Shown: piece after piece, positions 42,726 through 49,025 of the stretch | Layout of the letters: each line of letters opens with the position of its first letter | Position numbering within the stretch: position 1 is the first letter of the stretch | The notes under the pieces: model-generated | What the model was told of the DNA's origin: nothing | The model's database searches: none | Seen by the model: only the letters and a program-made list of their open reading frames with translations | Program-made: the position numbers and the translations under genes | Source: Ruminococcus sp. | GTDB taxonomy: Bacteria > Bacillota > Clostridia > Oscillospirales > Ruminococcaceae | Assembly: GCA_021200415.1 (NCBI GenBank) | Contig: JAJQGO010000011.1 | Span: 62,001-126,000, forward strand | Length of the DNA: 64,000 bases | Direction: 5' to 3'

Positions 42726-43598
42726 ATGAACAATAGCTATAAGAATTTGCAAAATTCCCACCCATGCTTCGGCGGAAATAAAAATAACGTCGGAAGAATT
42801 CATTTACCGGTCAGTCCGGGATGTAATATAGCCTGTCGGTTCTGCGATCGTGCCATAAACGATACCGATAATCGTCCCGGTGTCACTTCAAAGATAATTT
42901 CACCGGAGGAAAGCATCAGCATTTTGGAAAAGGCACTGAAAATTTGTCCGGAAATTACGGTTGCGGGAATCGCAGGGCCGGGAGATACGCTGGCATCTGA
43001 TTATGCTCTGGAAACCTTTCGCAGAATTAAGGAACGCTTTCCTAAGCTTATAAAATGTATGAGTACCAACGGACTTTTGCTTTATGAGCGTGCAGATGAA
43101 ATCATTGAAATCGGAATAGATTCTCTTACAGTTACGGTAAACGCGGTTGATCCGAAAATTGAAGCGCAGCTTAATAAATATATTATTTATCACGGCAGAA
43201 GATATGAGGATATAGAAGCAGCGGAGATACTGATTGATAACCAGCTGAATGGAATCAAAAAAATTGCCGCAGCGGGAATCACTGTAAAGGTGAATACGGT
43301 ACTTGTTCCGGAGATTAACGGAAATCATATTGAAGAAATCGCAAAAGCAGTAAGTCAGGCAGGCGCAGCTATTTATAATATTATTCCGCTGATACCGCAA
43401 TATGAGCTTGCTGATCAAAAAGCGCCGACCTGTTTTCAGATTGACGAGGCACGTACAAAAGCATCAAAATATATTGACGTTTTCCGTCACTGTCAGCATT
43501 GTCGGGCAGATGCTGTGGGCGTTCCCGGAAAATCGGAATACGGTGAGCAGATATATCAGAAAAGACTCAATGTAAAGGAAACATTTTCTCATGGATAA
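42726..43598 (+). CDS. NifB-like radical-SAM protein (cofactor precursor synthesis)
   Basis: A 290-residue radical-SAM enzyme matching the core of NifB, which makes the carbide-containing [8Fe-9S-C] precursor of nitrogenase cofactors. Features are the HPCFGG opening with Cys14, the radical-SAM triad Cys33, Cys37, Cys40 in PGCNIACRFC, and a C-terminal pair CQHC (256-259), the set of cysteines that hold the precursor clusters in NifB. The NifX-like domain fused in some NifBs is here a separate following gene. It is the first gene of the nitrogenase-like operon. Confidence 0.9.
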   Translation: MNNSYKNLQNSHPCFGGNKNNVGRIHLPVSPGCNIACRFCDRAINDTDNRPGVTSKIISPEESISILEKALKICPEITVAGIAGPGDTLASDYALETFRRIKERFPKLIKCMSTNGLLLYERADEIIEIGIDSLTVTVNAVDPKIEAQLNKYIIYHGRRYEDIEAAEILIDNQLNGIKKIAAAGITVKVNTVLVPEINGNHIEEIAKAVSQAGAAIYNIIPLIPQYELADQKAPTCFQIDEARTKASKYIDVFRHCQHCRADAVGVPGKSEYGEQIYQKRLNVKETFSHG

Positions 43599-43953
43599 TT
43601 CGTATAGAATCGCTGTTGCGTCATCGGACGGTATCGTTGTAAATCAGCATTTTGGCCATGCAGGCAGGTTTCTCATTTATGAGGTGGAAAGCAATGGAAA
43701 TTTCAACCTTGCCGAAATCCGAAACACAGAACCCGTTTGCAGCTTCAGAAATCATGACGACGAAAAGCTAATGAAAAATATGAGAATGATTCAGGACTGT
43801 AAATATCTTCTTGTAAGCAGGATAGGAAACGGAGCGTCAATATGTGCTGAACAGCTTGGTATCACAGCAATGGAGCTTCCCGATCTGATTGAGAACTCTA
43901 TCAGAAAAATAATTTCATATGAACAGGTACAAAAATTGATTGGAAAGGAATAA
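43591..43953 (+). CDS. NifX/NifB C-terminal-like cofactor-binding protein, first copy
   Basis: A 120-residue protein of the dinitrogenase iron-molybdenum cofactor family (NifX, NafY, NifB C-terminus). It begins [20 protein letters not shown], a typical start in which the two histidines (HFGHA) are candidate cluster contacts. It overlaps the NifB-like gene by eight bases, so both domains are made together. Confidence 0.88.
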
Positions 43954-43958
43954 AAACA

Positions 43959-44807
43959 ATGTCAGAAATCAGACAAATTGCAATCTATGGAAAGGGCGGT
44001 ATTGGCAAATCAACCACAACTCAGAATCTTACGGCAGGTCTTTGCGAGCATGGCAAAAAGGTCATGGTTGTCGGGTGTGACCCAAAGGCGGATTCAACGA
44101 GGCTTCTCCTTGGAGGATTAGCGCAGAAAACAGTGCTTGATACTATCCGTGATGAGGGAGAGGATATTGAGCTTGACAGAATCATGCGTGAGGGATATGG
44201 CGGTACACGCTGTGTGGAATCAGGAGGTCCTGAACCGGGTGTCGGCTGTGCGGGCAGAGGAATTATCACTTCGATCAATATGCTTGAGAATCTTGGAGCA
44301 TATACGGACGACCTTGATTATGTTTTCTATGACGTTCTCGGCGACGTTGTCTGCGGAGGATTTGCTATGCCGATACGTGAGGGCAAGGCAAAGGAAATTT
44401 ATATTGTGGCAAGCGGAGAAATGATGGCGCTTTATGCTGCAAATAACATAGCAAAGGGAATCAAAAGATATGCCAAAACAGGCGGTGTGCGCTTGGGCGG
44501 TATCATCTGCAACAGCAGGAATGTTGACAGAGAGCTTGATTTGCTTCGTGCGTTTTCCAAAGAGCTTGGAACACAGCTTTTGTATTTTGTACCTCGTGAC
44601 AATATCGTTCAGCGTGCGGAAATCAACAAGAAAACAGTCATCGAATACAAGCCTGATTCAAATCAAGCACAGGAATACAGAAATCTTGCGGAAGCAGTGA
44701 TAAATAACACAAAATTTGATATTCCGACACCTATGACTCAGGAAAGACTGGAGGAAATTCTGTTGGAATTTGGTCTTATGGATTCCGCAGACGATTATCA
44801 CATCTAA
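43959..44807 (+). CDS. NifH-like iron protein (ATP-dependent reductase)
   Basis: A 282-residue homodimeric ATPase very close to NifH. P-loop [10 protein letters not shown] (residues 11-20), switch region CDPKADSTR, and the two cysteines that share the [4Fe-4S] cluster between subunits: Cys96 in GVGCAGRG and Cys131 in DVVCGGFAM. It delivers electrons with ATP hydrolysis to the NifDK-like partner. True NifH is about 275-295 residues. It is followed by a second cysK and then the NifD/NifK-like pair. Confidence 0.93.
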
Positions 44808-47296: not shown

Positions 47297-48594
47297 TGGC
47301 GAAACTTCTTGACAAACAACGATATAAATGTGCCTTAGGTGCGATGCAGACAGTACAGGCAATCACAAGAGCAATTCCGATACTTCACTCAGGCCCCGGC
47401 TGTGCGCAAAAGCTTTCTGATTCCATCGGAAGCAGCGGCTATTTTTCTCCGAATATTTTTCCATGTACAAGTATCAATGAAAAGGACGTTGTATTCGGCG
47501 GTGCGAAAAAGCTTGAAACTACAATTGAGAATGCGTTAAAGGTTATAGATGCGGATTTGTATGTGGTGCTTACCGGATGCATTCCCGAAATTGTCGGAGA
47601 TGATACAGCGGAAGTGGTAAGTCATTTTAAGGATTCTGAAAAGCCTGTGATTTATGCGTCTACAGCAGGATTCAAGGGCAATAATTTCAAAGGTCACGAG
47701 CAGGTAATAGATGCTGTAATTGAACAGTATCTTGAAAAATCCGATGAAAAGGAAAAGGGTCTGGTGAATATATGGGCGGATGTACCATATCAGGACTTAT
47801 TCTGGCTTGGAAATTTAAGGGAGCTTGAAAAGCTTGTTGCTGAGCTTGGTTTAACTCCAAATACCATTTTTGGTTACGAACGCGGAATAGAAAATATAAA
47901 TCGTATTCCAAAAGCACAATTCAATCTTCTCGTATCTCCTTGGGTATCTGTCGGAAACATGAAGAAAATGGAGCAGAAGCTTGGTATACCGTATCTTCAT
48001 TATCCTACACTGCCAATCGGCGCTTTTGAAACAAGCAGGTTTCTGCGTGAGGTCGGAAAATTTGCAGGCGTAGACGAAGAAAAAATCGAAAGCATCATCA
48101 ATAAGCATGAGGATTATTACTACTACCTCATTGAACGCTATGCGGATATGTTTCTTGAAACACGTGTTATGGCAAAGCAGTTTTCAGTCGTTGCTGACGC
48201 ACAGTATGCACTTGGAATTACAAAATTTCTTGTCAATGACTTGGGACTTGTACCGGCAAAGCAGTTTATAACAGATGATACGCCAAAAGCATTTCAAAAG
48301 CAGATACGAGAGGAATTTGAAAATCTCAACTATGGATTGAAAGCAGAGGTAAGCTTTGAAACCGACAGCTATAAGATACACAATGAAATTCAGTCACATG
48401 ATTATCATGGCTATCCGCTTATCCTTGGAGGCTACTATGAAAAAGAGATAACTGAGAAAATGTTCGGTCATTTCTTAAATATTTCGTGGCCGGTTCAGGA
48501 CAAGGTTGTGTTGGACGACGCTTATATCGGTTATACAGGCGGCATTCGTCTGATTGAGGATATTTACTCTGTTGCCGTACAGCGTTGGAACTAA
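47296..48594 (+). CDS. Nitrogenase component 1-like beta subunit (NifK/NifN family)
   Basis: A 432-residue partner of the NifD-like protein. The three P-cluster cysteines are in place: Cys12 (YKCALGAMQ), Cys36 (HSGPGC) and Cys94 (LTGCIPEIVGDD). It is shorter than nitrogenase NifK (about 520), lacking the N-terminal extension. The C-terminal region (DYHGYPLILGGYYE and YTGGIRLIEDIY) is typical of the superfamily. With overlapping genes, the two subunits should form the heterotetramer fed by the NifH-like protein. Confidence 0.9.
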   Translation: MAKLLDKQRYKCALGAMQTVQAITRAIPILHSGPGCAQKLSDSIGSSGYFSPNIFPCTSINEKDVVFGGAKKLETTIENALKVIDADLYVVLTGCIPEIVGDDTAEVVSHFKDSEKPVIYASTAGFKGNNFKGHEQVIDAVIEQYLEKSDEKEKGLVNIWADVPYQDLFWLGNLRELEKLVAELGLTPNTIFGYERGIENINRIPKAQFNLLVSPWVSVGNMKKMEQKLGIPYLHYPTLPIGAFETSRFLREVGKFAGVDEEKIESIINKHEDYYYYLIERYADMFLETRVMAKQFSVVADAQYALGITKFLVNDLGLVPAKQFITDDTPKAFQKQIREEFENLNYGLKAEVSFETDSYKIHNEIQSHDYHGYPLILGGYYEKEITEKMFGHFLNISWPVQDKVVLDDAYIGYTGGIRLIEDIYSVAVQRWN

Positions 48595-48617
48595 GCTGCT
48601 TTTGGAGGTGAAACAGC

Positions 48618-49025
48618 ATGGCATACAAAATCGCAGTTGCGTCCTCTGATGGTATCGAGGTAAATGAAGCATTTGGTAATGCTGCGCGTTTTCTTATATT
48701 CACAGTAAATAACGAAACAATTGAGCCGCCTGAGGAACGAATTTGCACCGTTGGAGATGAATCAGATATATCTTCTGTCTGTAAGGACAACACCTGCCGC
48801 GGTAATGGCAGCAGGTGCAATAATTATACAGGTAATGCGATAAAGGTCGAGCAAATTGCCGACTGCCGATGCGTGGTCTGTCAAAAAATCGGCTTTCAGG
48901 TGCAAAAACAGCTTGAACGGAAAGCCATTAGCTTTTTTGATGTCAGCTGCACCGTAGAAGAAGCTCTGAGTAAAATTATAAAGTATTACAGCAGAATTGA
49001 CAAACATGAATCGCTTAGAAAATAA
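48618..49025 (+). CDS. NifX-like protein, second, cysteine-rich copy
   Basis: A 135-residue paralogue of the NifX-like protein at 43591. The opening [20 protein letters not shown] keeps the fold but has lost both histidines of the first copy (HFGHA became AFGNA). The middle gained cysteines: VCKDNTCRGNGSRC and DCRCVVCQKIG. It may bind a cluster through cysteine or serve a different step. It closes the operon; a strong terminator follows. Confidence 0.85.
   Translation: MAYKIAVASSDGIEVNEAFGNAARFLIFTVNNETIEPPEERICTVGDESDISSVCKDNTCRGNGSRCNNYTGNAIKVEQIADCRCVVCQKIGFQVQKQLERKAISFFDVSCTVEEALSKIIKYYSRIDKHESLRK

Follow-up and report, generated by a model that had tools for sequence, protein, structure and literature searches.

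The seven genes nifB-nifX-nifH-cysK-nifD-nifK-nifX at 42726-49025 on the plus strand of a 64,000-nucleotide stretch of Ruminococcus sp. DNA (hereafter the window) probably encode a reductase that resembles methylthio-alkane reductase (Mar), depends on NifB, cleaves C-S bonds to scavenge organic sulfur and hands the resulting sulfide or thiol to a cysteine synthase of its own; we place the probability of this reading at about two in three. It draws on the gene content of the locus, Mar-type ligand residues, a separate clade, a conserved cysK slot and a shared leader, all of which are directly observed. The original prediction had seen here a sulfur-scavenging nitrogenase-like reductase, and its core, C-S reduction with a NifB-made cofactor, survives; that the enzyme is methylthio-alkane reductase itself does not follow, given the separate clade and the altered residues. 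The proposed coupling to sulfur metabolism gains support from the cysK slot, from the leader shared with other genes and from nearby transporter and sulfur genes.

All seven genes, as originally predicted, are open, tightly packed and matched by family models. The first encodes a NifB-like radical S-adenosylmethionine maturase (B, 42726..43598), which scores 296 bits with the solved NifB 7bi7 and carries the NifB motifs, five of which are present in 60 to 62 of 62 aligned rows; the NifB family model gives 264.8 bits under a cut-off of 343.7, and it also covers the NifX part, here a separate gene. NifX/NafY-type cofactor-binding proteins stand second (43591..43953; PF02579, Nitro_FeMo-Co, 56 bits) and last (48618..49025; PF02579, 40.5 bits). 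The NifH-like ATPase reductase (H, 43959..44807; PF00142, 431 bits) lies above the cut-off of the NifH model (464 over 394 bits), with the P-loop and both cluster cysteine motifs kept in 66/66 rows. It is followed by a cysteine-synthase paralogue, CysK2 (44826..45821), named apart from the canonical CysK1 upstream, and by the NifD/MarD-like and NifK/MarK-like catalytic subunits D (45833..47296) and K (47296..48594), which score 245 and 239 bits with the Pfam model Oxidored_nitro. A PF00148 search of the window genome (G000, GCA_021200415.1; 2.35 Mb in 64 contigs, 99.5% complete) finds no NifD/K-type genes other than D and K, and hence no NifEN.

Compared with all solved chains, D scores 306.7 (9fmg) and 304.4 bits with two MarD entries and 116 bits with the best nitrogenase, and K scores 377 bits with MarK and at most 87 with any other. 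Window D is 35% identical to MarD and 22-23% identical to two NifD rows, and K is 42% identical to MarK. The nitrogenase models of NCBIfam are missed by wide margins (nifD, 141 bits against a cut-off of 654; nifK, 98 against 427), as are those of tetrapyrrole reductases, taking the better of D and K (bchN 61 against 324, bchB 102 against 490, methan_mark_13 55 against 268, BchZ 54 against 529). The D tree of 32 rows separates 26 Mar-like rows from six NifD/NifE rows at 100/100, and a larger quick tree of 76 rows gives the same groups. Placement of the pair inside nitrogenases or tetrapyrrole reductases, which the original prediction had held would count against it, is thus not what is found: D goes with MarD, apart from NifD/NifE, and the best match of K is MarK. 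Nitrogenase identity is rejected by model scores, the D tree and the ligand residues described below, and identity with the tetrapyrrole reductases DPOR, COR or CfbD by model scores and tree; by these measures the catalytic pair is not a nitrogenase.

Nor, judged from the same alignments, is it a Mar of the Rhodospirillum rubrum type. The clade of the window (clade I, 14 rows in the D tree) is separated at 100/100, and MarD forms a joint group, also at 100/100, with three proteins from the bacterial family of the window (clade III), two of which are 55 and 57% identical to MarD. Clade I falls within the Mar-like superclade (100/100) and outside the group of MarD and clade III (100/100), and two further clades, II and 'D2', are each separate from it. 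A tree in which clade I is joined to MarD and clade III is not rejected by the approximately unbiased (AU) test (p 0.189), so the branching order among the Mar-like clades is left open. The enzyme is filed as Mar-like, and not as Mar, on account of this clade of its own and of the replacement of His194 by Ile throughout it.

A scan of named genomes returns at least 594 relatives, and the best 80 of these, which were kept, all belong to clade I at 82-95% identity. By the organism named in the record, 67 come from Bacillota, 10 from spirochaetes and three from Bacteroidales; the carriers of clade I include Clostridia, Treponema and Bacteroidales, many of them from rumen, rectum, caecum or omasum samples. 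High identity across phyla, together with the nesting of Bacteroidota among Lachnospiraceae in the quick tree, points to horizontal transfer. K follows D in 80/80 loci, and a cysteine-synthase gene immediately upstream of D is found in 69 of the 76 loci whose sequence extends 900 nt or more to that side; given this recurrence at 82-95% identity, the operon is not a chance arrangement. Its complete gene order is not found in every locus, some of which end at contig edges while others are rearranged. Within the window's own bacterial family, 33 of 297 sampled genomes match D at E <= 0.001, a number that includes true nitrogenases and other families.

The residues expected to hold the metal clusters are retained across clade I, here the window and 84 further rows (83 distinct, L033 and L062 being the same contig), with ligand and P-cluster numbering carried over by sequence alignment alone from the assignments given in the available part of PMC12552129. 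The P-cluster cysteines of D (C66, C91 and C158), the cofactor ligands Cys270 and His429, the latter paired with Arg428 on Loop I as the Mar hallmark, and Trp195, Phe199 and His375 are present in the window and in 84/84 rows, and the three P-cluster cysteines of K in 77/77 rows including the window. The Arg-His pair is found in 0/7 NifD and 0/4 NifE rows. Among the second-shell residues of Mar around the S2B site (His194, Trp195 and His375), His194 is replaced by Ile in 85/85 rows, and all 85 rows also carry H355F, F374W, H376Y and N430P, with C73 read as G, S or A; positions 355, 374, 376 and 430 would lie near the substrate. Judging from the kept ligands and the fixed changes, the clade I enzyme should hold Mar-type clusters and probably meets its substrate in a setting different from that of Mar.

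Several further arrangements of such genes were seen. Second D/K pairs occur in 21/80 loci (e.g. L105:13334), and a fused D-K protein of 913 residues in L048 and L049. Here belongs clade 'D2', often found behind the main operon, whose B and H it could use; its rows contain the P-cluster cysteines and Cys270, lack Arg428-His429 and have Cys in place of Trp195 (23/23), and it may act as a scaffold or reduce a different substrate. A 382-kb plasmid of Treponema saccharophilum (pTS2, L141) has one nifB-nifX-nifH set and two different D/K pairs with an ABC transporter between them and an IS30 transposase nearby. Another paired nitrogenase-like family (about 410 and 433 residues) occurs in the same bacterial family (L027-L031); one member reads GPAGTTH in L027-L029 and so lacks the cysteine normally present at the P-cluster position. 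In L037 (genome G027) the operon is present at about 90% identity with nifB, nifH, cysK2 and nifD among the genes broken into frames, either a decaying copy or the result of assembly errors.

The slot before D is occupied by two cysteine-synthase lineages, 44 loci having slot A and 25 slot B among the named loci, which are 39-47% identical to one another; slot B splits off at 100/100, and both are distinct from the nearby canonical CysK1. The lysine that binds pyridoxal phosphate (PLP), the TSGN substrate loop and the GTGGT loop are retained in 45/45 slot A proteins, the window included, and in 25/25 of slot B, and CysK2 is best described from its sequence as a divergent cysteine-synthase paralogue. 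In clade II, whose D is about 40% identical, the operon starts with metC-cysK in 6/7 loci, the seventh being a short contig, and the cysK belongs to yet another CysK branch (it is split into two frames in L039). That different cysteine synthases recur beside the reductase is the strongest indication that its product is sulfide or a thiol; which of sulfide and methanethiol is released cannot be told from sequence.

A related synthase appears in a different setting on plasmids. In a search of a plasmid collection, restricted to the best 12 of 575 matching records, the closest CysK2 relatives among the matches listed are from Pantoea (54%) and lie beside SsuA-type transporter genes. The two Pantoea loci examined encode an acyl-CoA-dehydrogenase-family enzyme, which in P. 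agglomerans matches SfnB best (103 bits, cut-off 431), and P. agglomerans plasmid p33.1_1 (L209:3907-10587) also encodes an enzyme like the alkanesulfonate monooxygenase SsuD (264.5 bits, cut-off 510). A synthase of the CysK2 kind thus also accompanies an apparently O2-dependent organosulfur system, an apparent aerobic counterpart.

The gap behind the DUF2292 gene, ahead of nifB, contains a hairpin of the pattern CUGACYGGA-N-CCRGAGG, whose second half is used again in the terminator that comes next. In the window this candidate attenuator lies at 42637..42696 on the plus strand, where the hairpin, CUGACCGG-AAAGA-CCGGAGG, overlaps the intrinsic terminator. Across all loci examined the pattern is present 52 times (window included; L033 and L062 both counted); loci L061-L140 contain 44 sites, against none in each of three simulations with a first-order Markov model, in which one strand was counted and the count doubled. 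Genes preceded by a site are nifB, nifH, the slot cysK, those for SsuA-type binding proteins, permeases and SBP_bac_3 proteins and, in one locus, a rhodanese-ThiF gene. Some slot-cysK sites have no terminator behind them and a start codon close downstream, so a different mode of regulation would apply to these. A consensus promoter-like match (TTGACA-17-TATAAT, 12/12) lies on the plus strand before cysK1 (41386..41414), in a region with 28 promoter-like matches against 23.3 expected, and none is found on this strand between it and nifB; a regulated terminator before nifB is therefore the simplest reading, and it would answer to sulfur.

In 32 aligned leader rows the four pairs of the hairpin form in 128/128 cells, 12 of which are changed on both sides. 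Of 500 shuffles, none reaches the observed cell and score measures, 96 reach the two pairs changed on both sides and all 500 reach the number of further pair types; since the pattern by which sites were found already restricts some letters, this covariation is supporting and not independent evidence. Genome-wide, the pattern gives 14 sites in 13/297 genomes and the reversed pattern one, a narrow net with zero sites in G139 and G201, although both carry the operon. Four of the 14 lie in genomes with a clade I operon, the site of the window genome being its only one, and six resemble chance matches, of which five fall within reading frames. Two genomes without Mar-like matches (G111 and G194) have the leader with a DUF2292 gene on one side and a cysK-like gene on the other, the families having been tested in one of them, and in G094 and G240 it stands before a Prok-JAB-type gene. 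In L197 and L198 (genus g94, two genomes without Mar-like matches), leader and terminator precede a Prok-JAB-domain gene, the domain having been tested in L197 only. No known riboswitch or T-box next to the operons of the window and of L033-L036 scores above the Rfam gathering threshold, and a permissive Rfam search with two short pieces gives the tRNA and chance-level matches.

A divergent tRNA-Cys-like gene stands directly before nifB in 28/84 clade I loci (27 distinct; e.g. L062:6789-6861), with the anticodon GCA in 27 and ACA in one; other tRNAs in the clade I loci number only four. Among named-genome loci with more than 600 nt before nifB, 25/56 have the tRNA and 31/56 do not, and ARAGORN detects none in the window. 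All 28 contain an A-G mismatch at 28-42. A hand count of the discriminator in the T8-A9 register gives G in 21, A in seven and no U73; automatic reading gives G in 17, A in three and T in eight, these eight being shifted in register by one. Normal tRNA-Cys genes with U73 are found elsewhere in G206 and in the window genome. U73 is described in the available part of PMC9976931 as a major identity element of bacterial tRNA-Cys.

Upstream of nifB the plus strand contains, in order, lysR, a metC-type gene, patB, the promoter-like site, cysK1, the DUF2292 gene (yezD) and the leader, which bears out the regulator, the two C-S PLP enzymes, the cysK and the yezD first noticed there. The LysR-family regulator (38058..38972) matches Pfam HTH_1 and LysR_substrate. 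The next product ('metC', 38965..40131), whose gene is frequent in related loci, is a Cys/Met-metabolism PLP enzyme of the cystathionine gamma-lyase/gamma-synthase type, and its score with NCBIfam PRK07671 (455 bits, cut-off 594) leaves its exact reaction undecided. It is followed by a PatB-family C-S lyase (40124..41299; TIGR04350, 464.7 bits, cut-off 340), CysK1, a canonical cysteine synthase (41497..42450; TIGR01139, 449.9 bits, cut-off 351), and the small yezD-type protein (42479..42640; PF10055, 60.8 bits). The MetY (O-acetylhomoserine sulfhydrylase) predicted at 15.7 kb is real (15664..16929, plus strand; TIGR01326, 589 bits, cut-off 495) and could accept sulfide or methanethiol. An ordinary PyrR-binding leader (Rfam RF00515, 56.8 bits) lies near pyrimidine genes at 63382-63502 on the minus strand of the window.

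Around the operons of the 80 loci the recurrent families, most of them checked with Pfam on one representative, are ABC-transporter ATPases (48, by eye), Rrf2 regulators (26), permeases (20 and 18), NifS-type aminotransferases (14), FtsX (14), NMT1/SsuA-type (13) and SBP_bac_3 (13) binding proteins, rhodanese-ThiF (11), GNAT (11, by eye), DUF4418 (11) and LanC-like (10) proteins, a hexapeptide protein (9, CysE-like by eye) and NifU-N (8); metA-like and metY-like genes adjoin some clade II loci. The sulfur genes of 18 genomes, 16 with Mar-like genes and two Mar-less congeners, were also surveyed. A sulfite-reductase domain is matched in 2/16 genomes with Mar-like genes (G000 and G065) and in 1/2 of the congeners, and MetY-family genes occur in 18/18. 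The gene mtnA is present in 0/7 clade I genomes, 3/6 clade II genomes and 3/18 overall. Phosphoadenosine phosphosulfate (PAPS) reductase (PF01507) is not matched in G000 and is strongly matched in the Mar-less congener G019; PF01507 is too broad as a marker of sulfate assimilation, matching in 9/18 genomes and in several cases inside much longer frames.

From these observations we infer the metalloclusters, C-S cleavage, the hand-over of sulfide or thiol and control by sulfur, as follows. NifB would build an [Fe8S9C]-type cluster that the NifX proteins carry, and NifH would pass electrons, with ATP, to a D2K2 complex holding the P-cluster and the NifB-made cofactor. This complex would break a C-S bond reductively in some small organosulfur molecule imported by the cell, and the sulfur, released as sulfide or a small thiol, would be captured by CysK2 (O-acetylserine with HS- or RSH). 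Transcription probably begins before cysK1 and would reach the reductase genes only past the regulated terminator. The assignment to C-S chemistry and sulfur follows from MarD and MarK as the closest solved relatives, the NifB-type maturase, the kept ligands and the split of D from NifD/NifE; from the cysK slot, the metC-cysK start in clade II, the shared leader and the sulfur-gene neighbours; and from the 14/16 Mar-like genomes without a sulfite-reductase match and the Pantoea relatives of CysK2 beside SsuA-type genes. Several observations pull the other way. In 7/76 loci no cysK precedes D and nifH occupies the slot, and CysK2 itself falls under the cysteine-synthase cut-offs (cysKM, 328.9 against 344 bits; the cysK model, 312.6 against 351). 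The changes near the cluster (H194I, H355F, F374W, H376Y, N430P, C73G/S/A) leave room for a substrate other than a thioether. No match to the SsuA-type binding protein of a relative (G135) is present in the window genome, which does encode a lone sulfite-reductase-like protein of 318 residues, and the second of the two Pantoea loci examined shows no monooxygenase.

If the operon instead encoded a true methylthio-alkane reductase with the substrates of R. rubrum MarBHDK, methanethiol would pass through MetY to methionine, and CysK2 and the MetC-type enzyme would serve a methionine-to-cysteine conversion resembling MccAB. The Mar ligands and the hallmark Arg-His pair fit this account, as do the ubiquity of metY-family genes among the 18 genomes, the best match of the MetC-like enzyme to a bifunctional cystathionine gamma-lyase model (under its cut-off), the metA-like and metY-like genes near clade II and the AU test that tolerates joining clade I to MarD. 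It is nevertheless rather unlikely: His194 at the S2B site is Ile in the window and 84/84 rows, with further fixed changes, and identity to MarD is far from that of the two clade III proteins. In addition, mtnA, which is required to form 2-methylthioethanol from methylthioadenosine (MTA), is missing from the seven clade I genomes, which makes an R. rubrum-type supply from MTA improbable for this clade. Slightly less probable again, and unlikely as a whole, is a bolder extension of the Mar-like C-S reductase, in which the enzyme would be the second type of C-S reductase related to nitrogenase. Free sulfide would be its product and would be channelled into the dedicated cysteine synthase, Clostridia, Treponema and Bacteroidales of gut and rumen would release small hydrocarbons such as methane or ethane from organosulfur compounds, the leader hairpin would be an undescribed switch and, in many species, a divergent leader tRNA-Cys poorly charged by cysteinyl-tRNA synthetase would serve as a device for sensing cysteine status.

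A reductase of isethionate or other sulfonates (Isr-like) would release sulfite, and SsuA-family binding proteins beside some relatives' operons, together with the report in the available part of PMC11423573 that Isr is widespread and present in intestinal bacteria, lend it some appeal. It is very unlikely here, and the ligands, the type of maturase and the scarcity of sulfite reductase lead to its rejection: according to the same portion of PMC11423573, IsrD has one of the three P-cluster cysteines and no Cys275 ligand, all of which are present in the window; IsrB is BciD-like, while the maturase here scores 296 bits with a solved NifB; and 14/16 Mar-like genomes lack a sulfite-reductase match, the window genome being one of the two exceptions. 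Least probable, with only a slim chance of being right, is a divergent nitrogenase or a tetrapyrrole or other C=C reductase whose cysK would simply supply cysteine for Fe-S clusters. NifB, NifX and NifH are nitrogenase-like, NifH even above its family cut-off, some loci have NifS-type and NifU-N genes close by, and a nitrogenase that works without NifEN has reportedly been found in one study; weighed against this are the 100/100 split of D from NifD/NifE, NCBIfam cut-offs that are far from reached, the hallmark residues of Mar where nitrogenase has others, and a leader common to cysK and transporter genes. The Mar-like C-S reductase feeding its own cysteine synthase remains the preferred reading.

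If correct, this reading would mean that organic sulfur can be turned into cysteine anaerobically in rumen and gut, perhaps with hydrocarbons given off. The locus also supplies a leader that may regulate sulfur genes, and a clade with a consistently different residue set helps to ask why a nitrogenase-type cofactor reduces C-S bonds and not N2. According to the available part of PMC4995403, cluster IV nifH accounted for 444/524 cloned genes and transcripts from human faeces, in operational taxonomic units that were mostly Clostridiales-like and of 'largely unknown' function. The clade I operon could be a testable candidate for part of this pool. Carriers that, per their records, are apparently cultured include Butyrivibrio hungatei NK4A153, Ruminiclostridium hungatei DSM 14427 and Treponema sp. 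C6A8. Among the matches listed in a literature search on nitrogenase-like genes in the gut, rumen or Clostridia or with cysteine synthase, clade I was not recognised, and a prior mention is possible; two of the listed papers, on sulfoquinovose (PMC12330013 and PMC11659671), each name nitrogenase-like enzymes once.

Set beside known systems, the operon comes closest to R. rubrum MarBHDK (PDB 9FMG), with which it shares, as far as the available part of PMC12552129 describes that enzyme, the B-H-D-K set, the NifB-type maturase, six P-cluster cysteines, the cofactor cysteine, the extended-loop histidine with its Arg-His hallmark, and Trp195, Phe199 and His375. Unlike R. rubrum Mar, the window operon has a cysK of its own in front of D, a pair of NifX proteins and an attenuator-type leader, and clade I stands as a clade of its own with I194, F355, W374, Y376 and P430 and with mtnA in 0/7 genomes. 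Rhodobacter capsulatus IsrBHDK, in the account available from PMC11423573, is likewise nitrogenase-like, set in a sulfur-scavenging locus with sulfonate-type transporters and represented in intestinal bacteria; it differs in an IsrD without two P-cluster cysteines and the cofactor cysteine, a BciD-like IsrB and the release of sulfite. Mo-nitrogenase (NifHDK with NifB and NifEN) has the protein family, NifB, NifX and NifH in common with the window, which departs from it in the missing NifEN, the 22-23% identity of D to NifD, the Mar-type cofactor ligands and the sulfur context. The aerobic SsuD/SfnB-type loci of P. agglomerans p33.1_1, finally, share SsuA-type binding proteins, ABC genes and a CysK2-kind synthase (54%), and have flavin enzymes where the window has a nitrogenase-like reductase.

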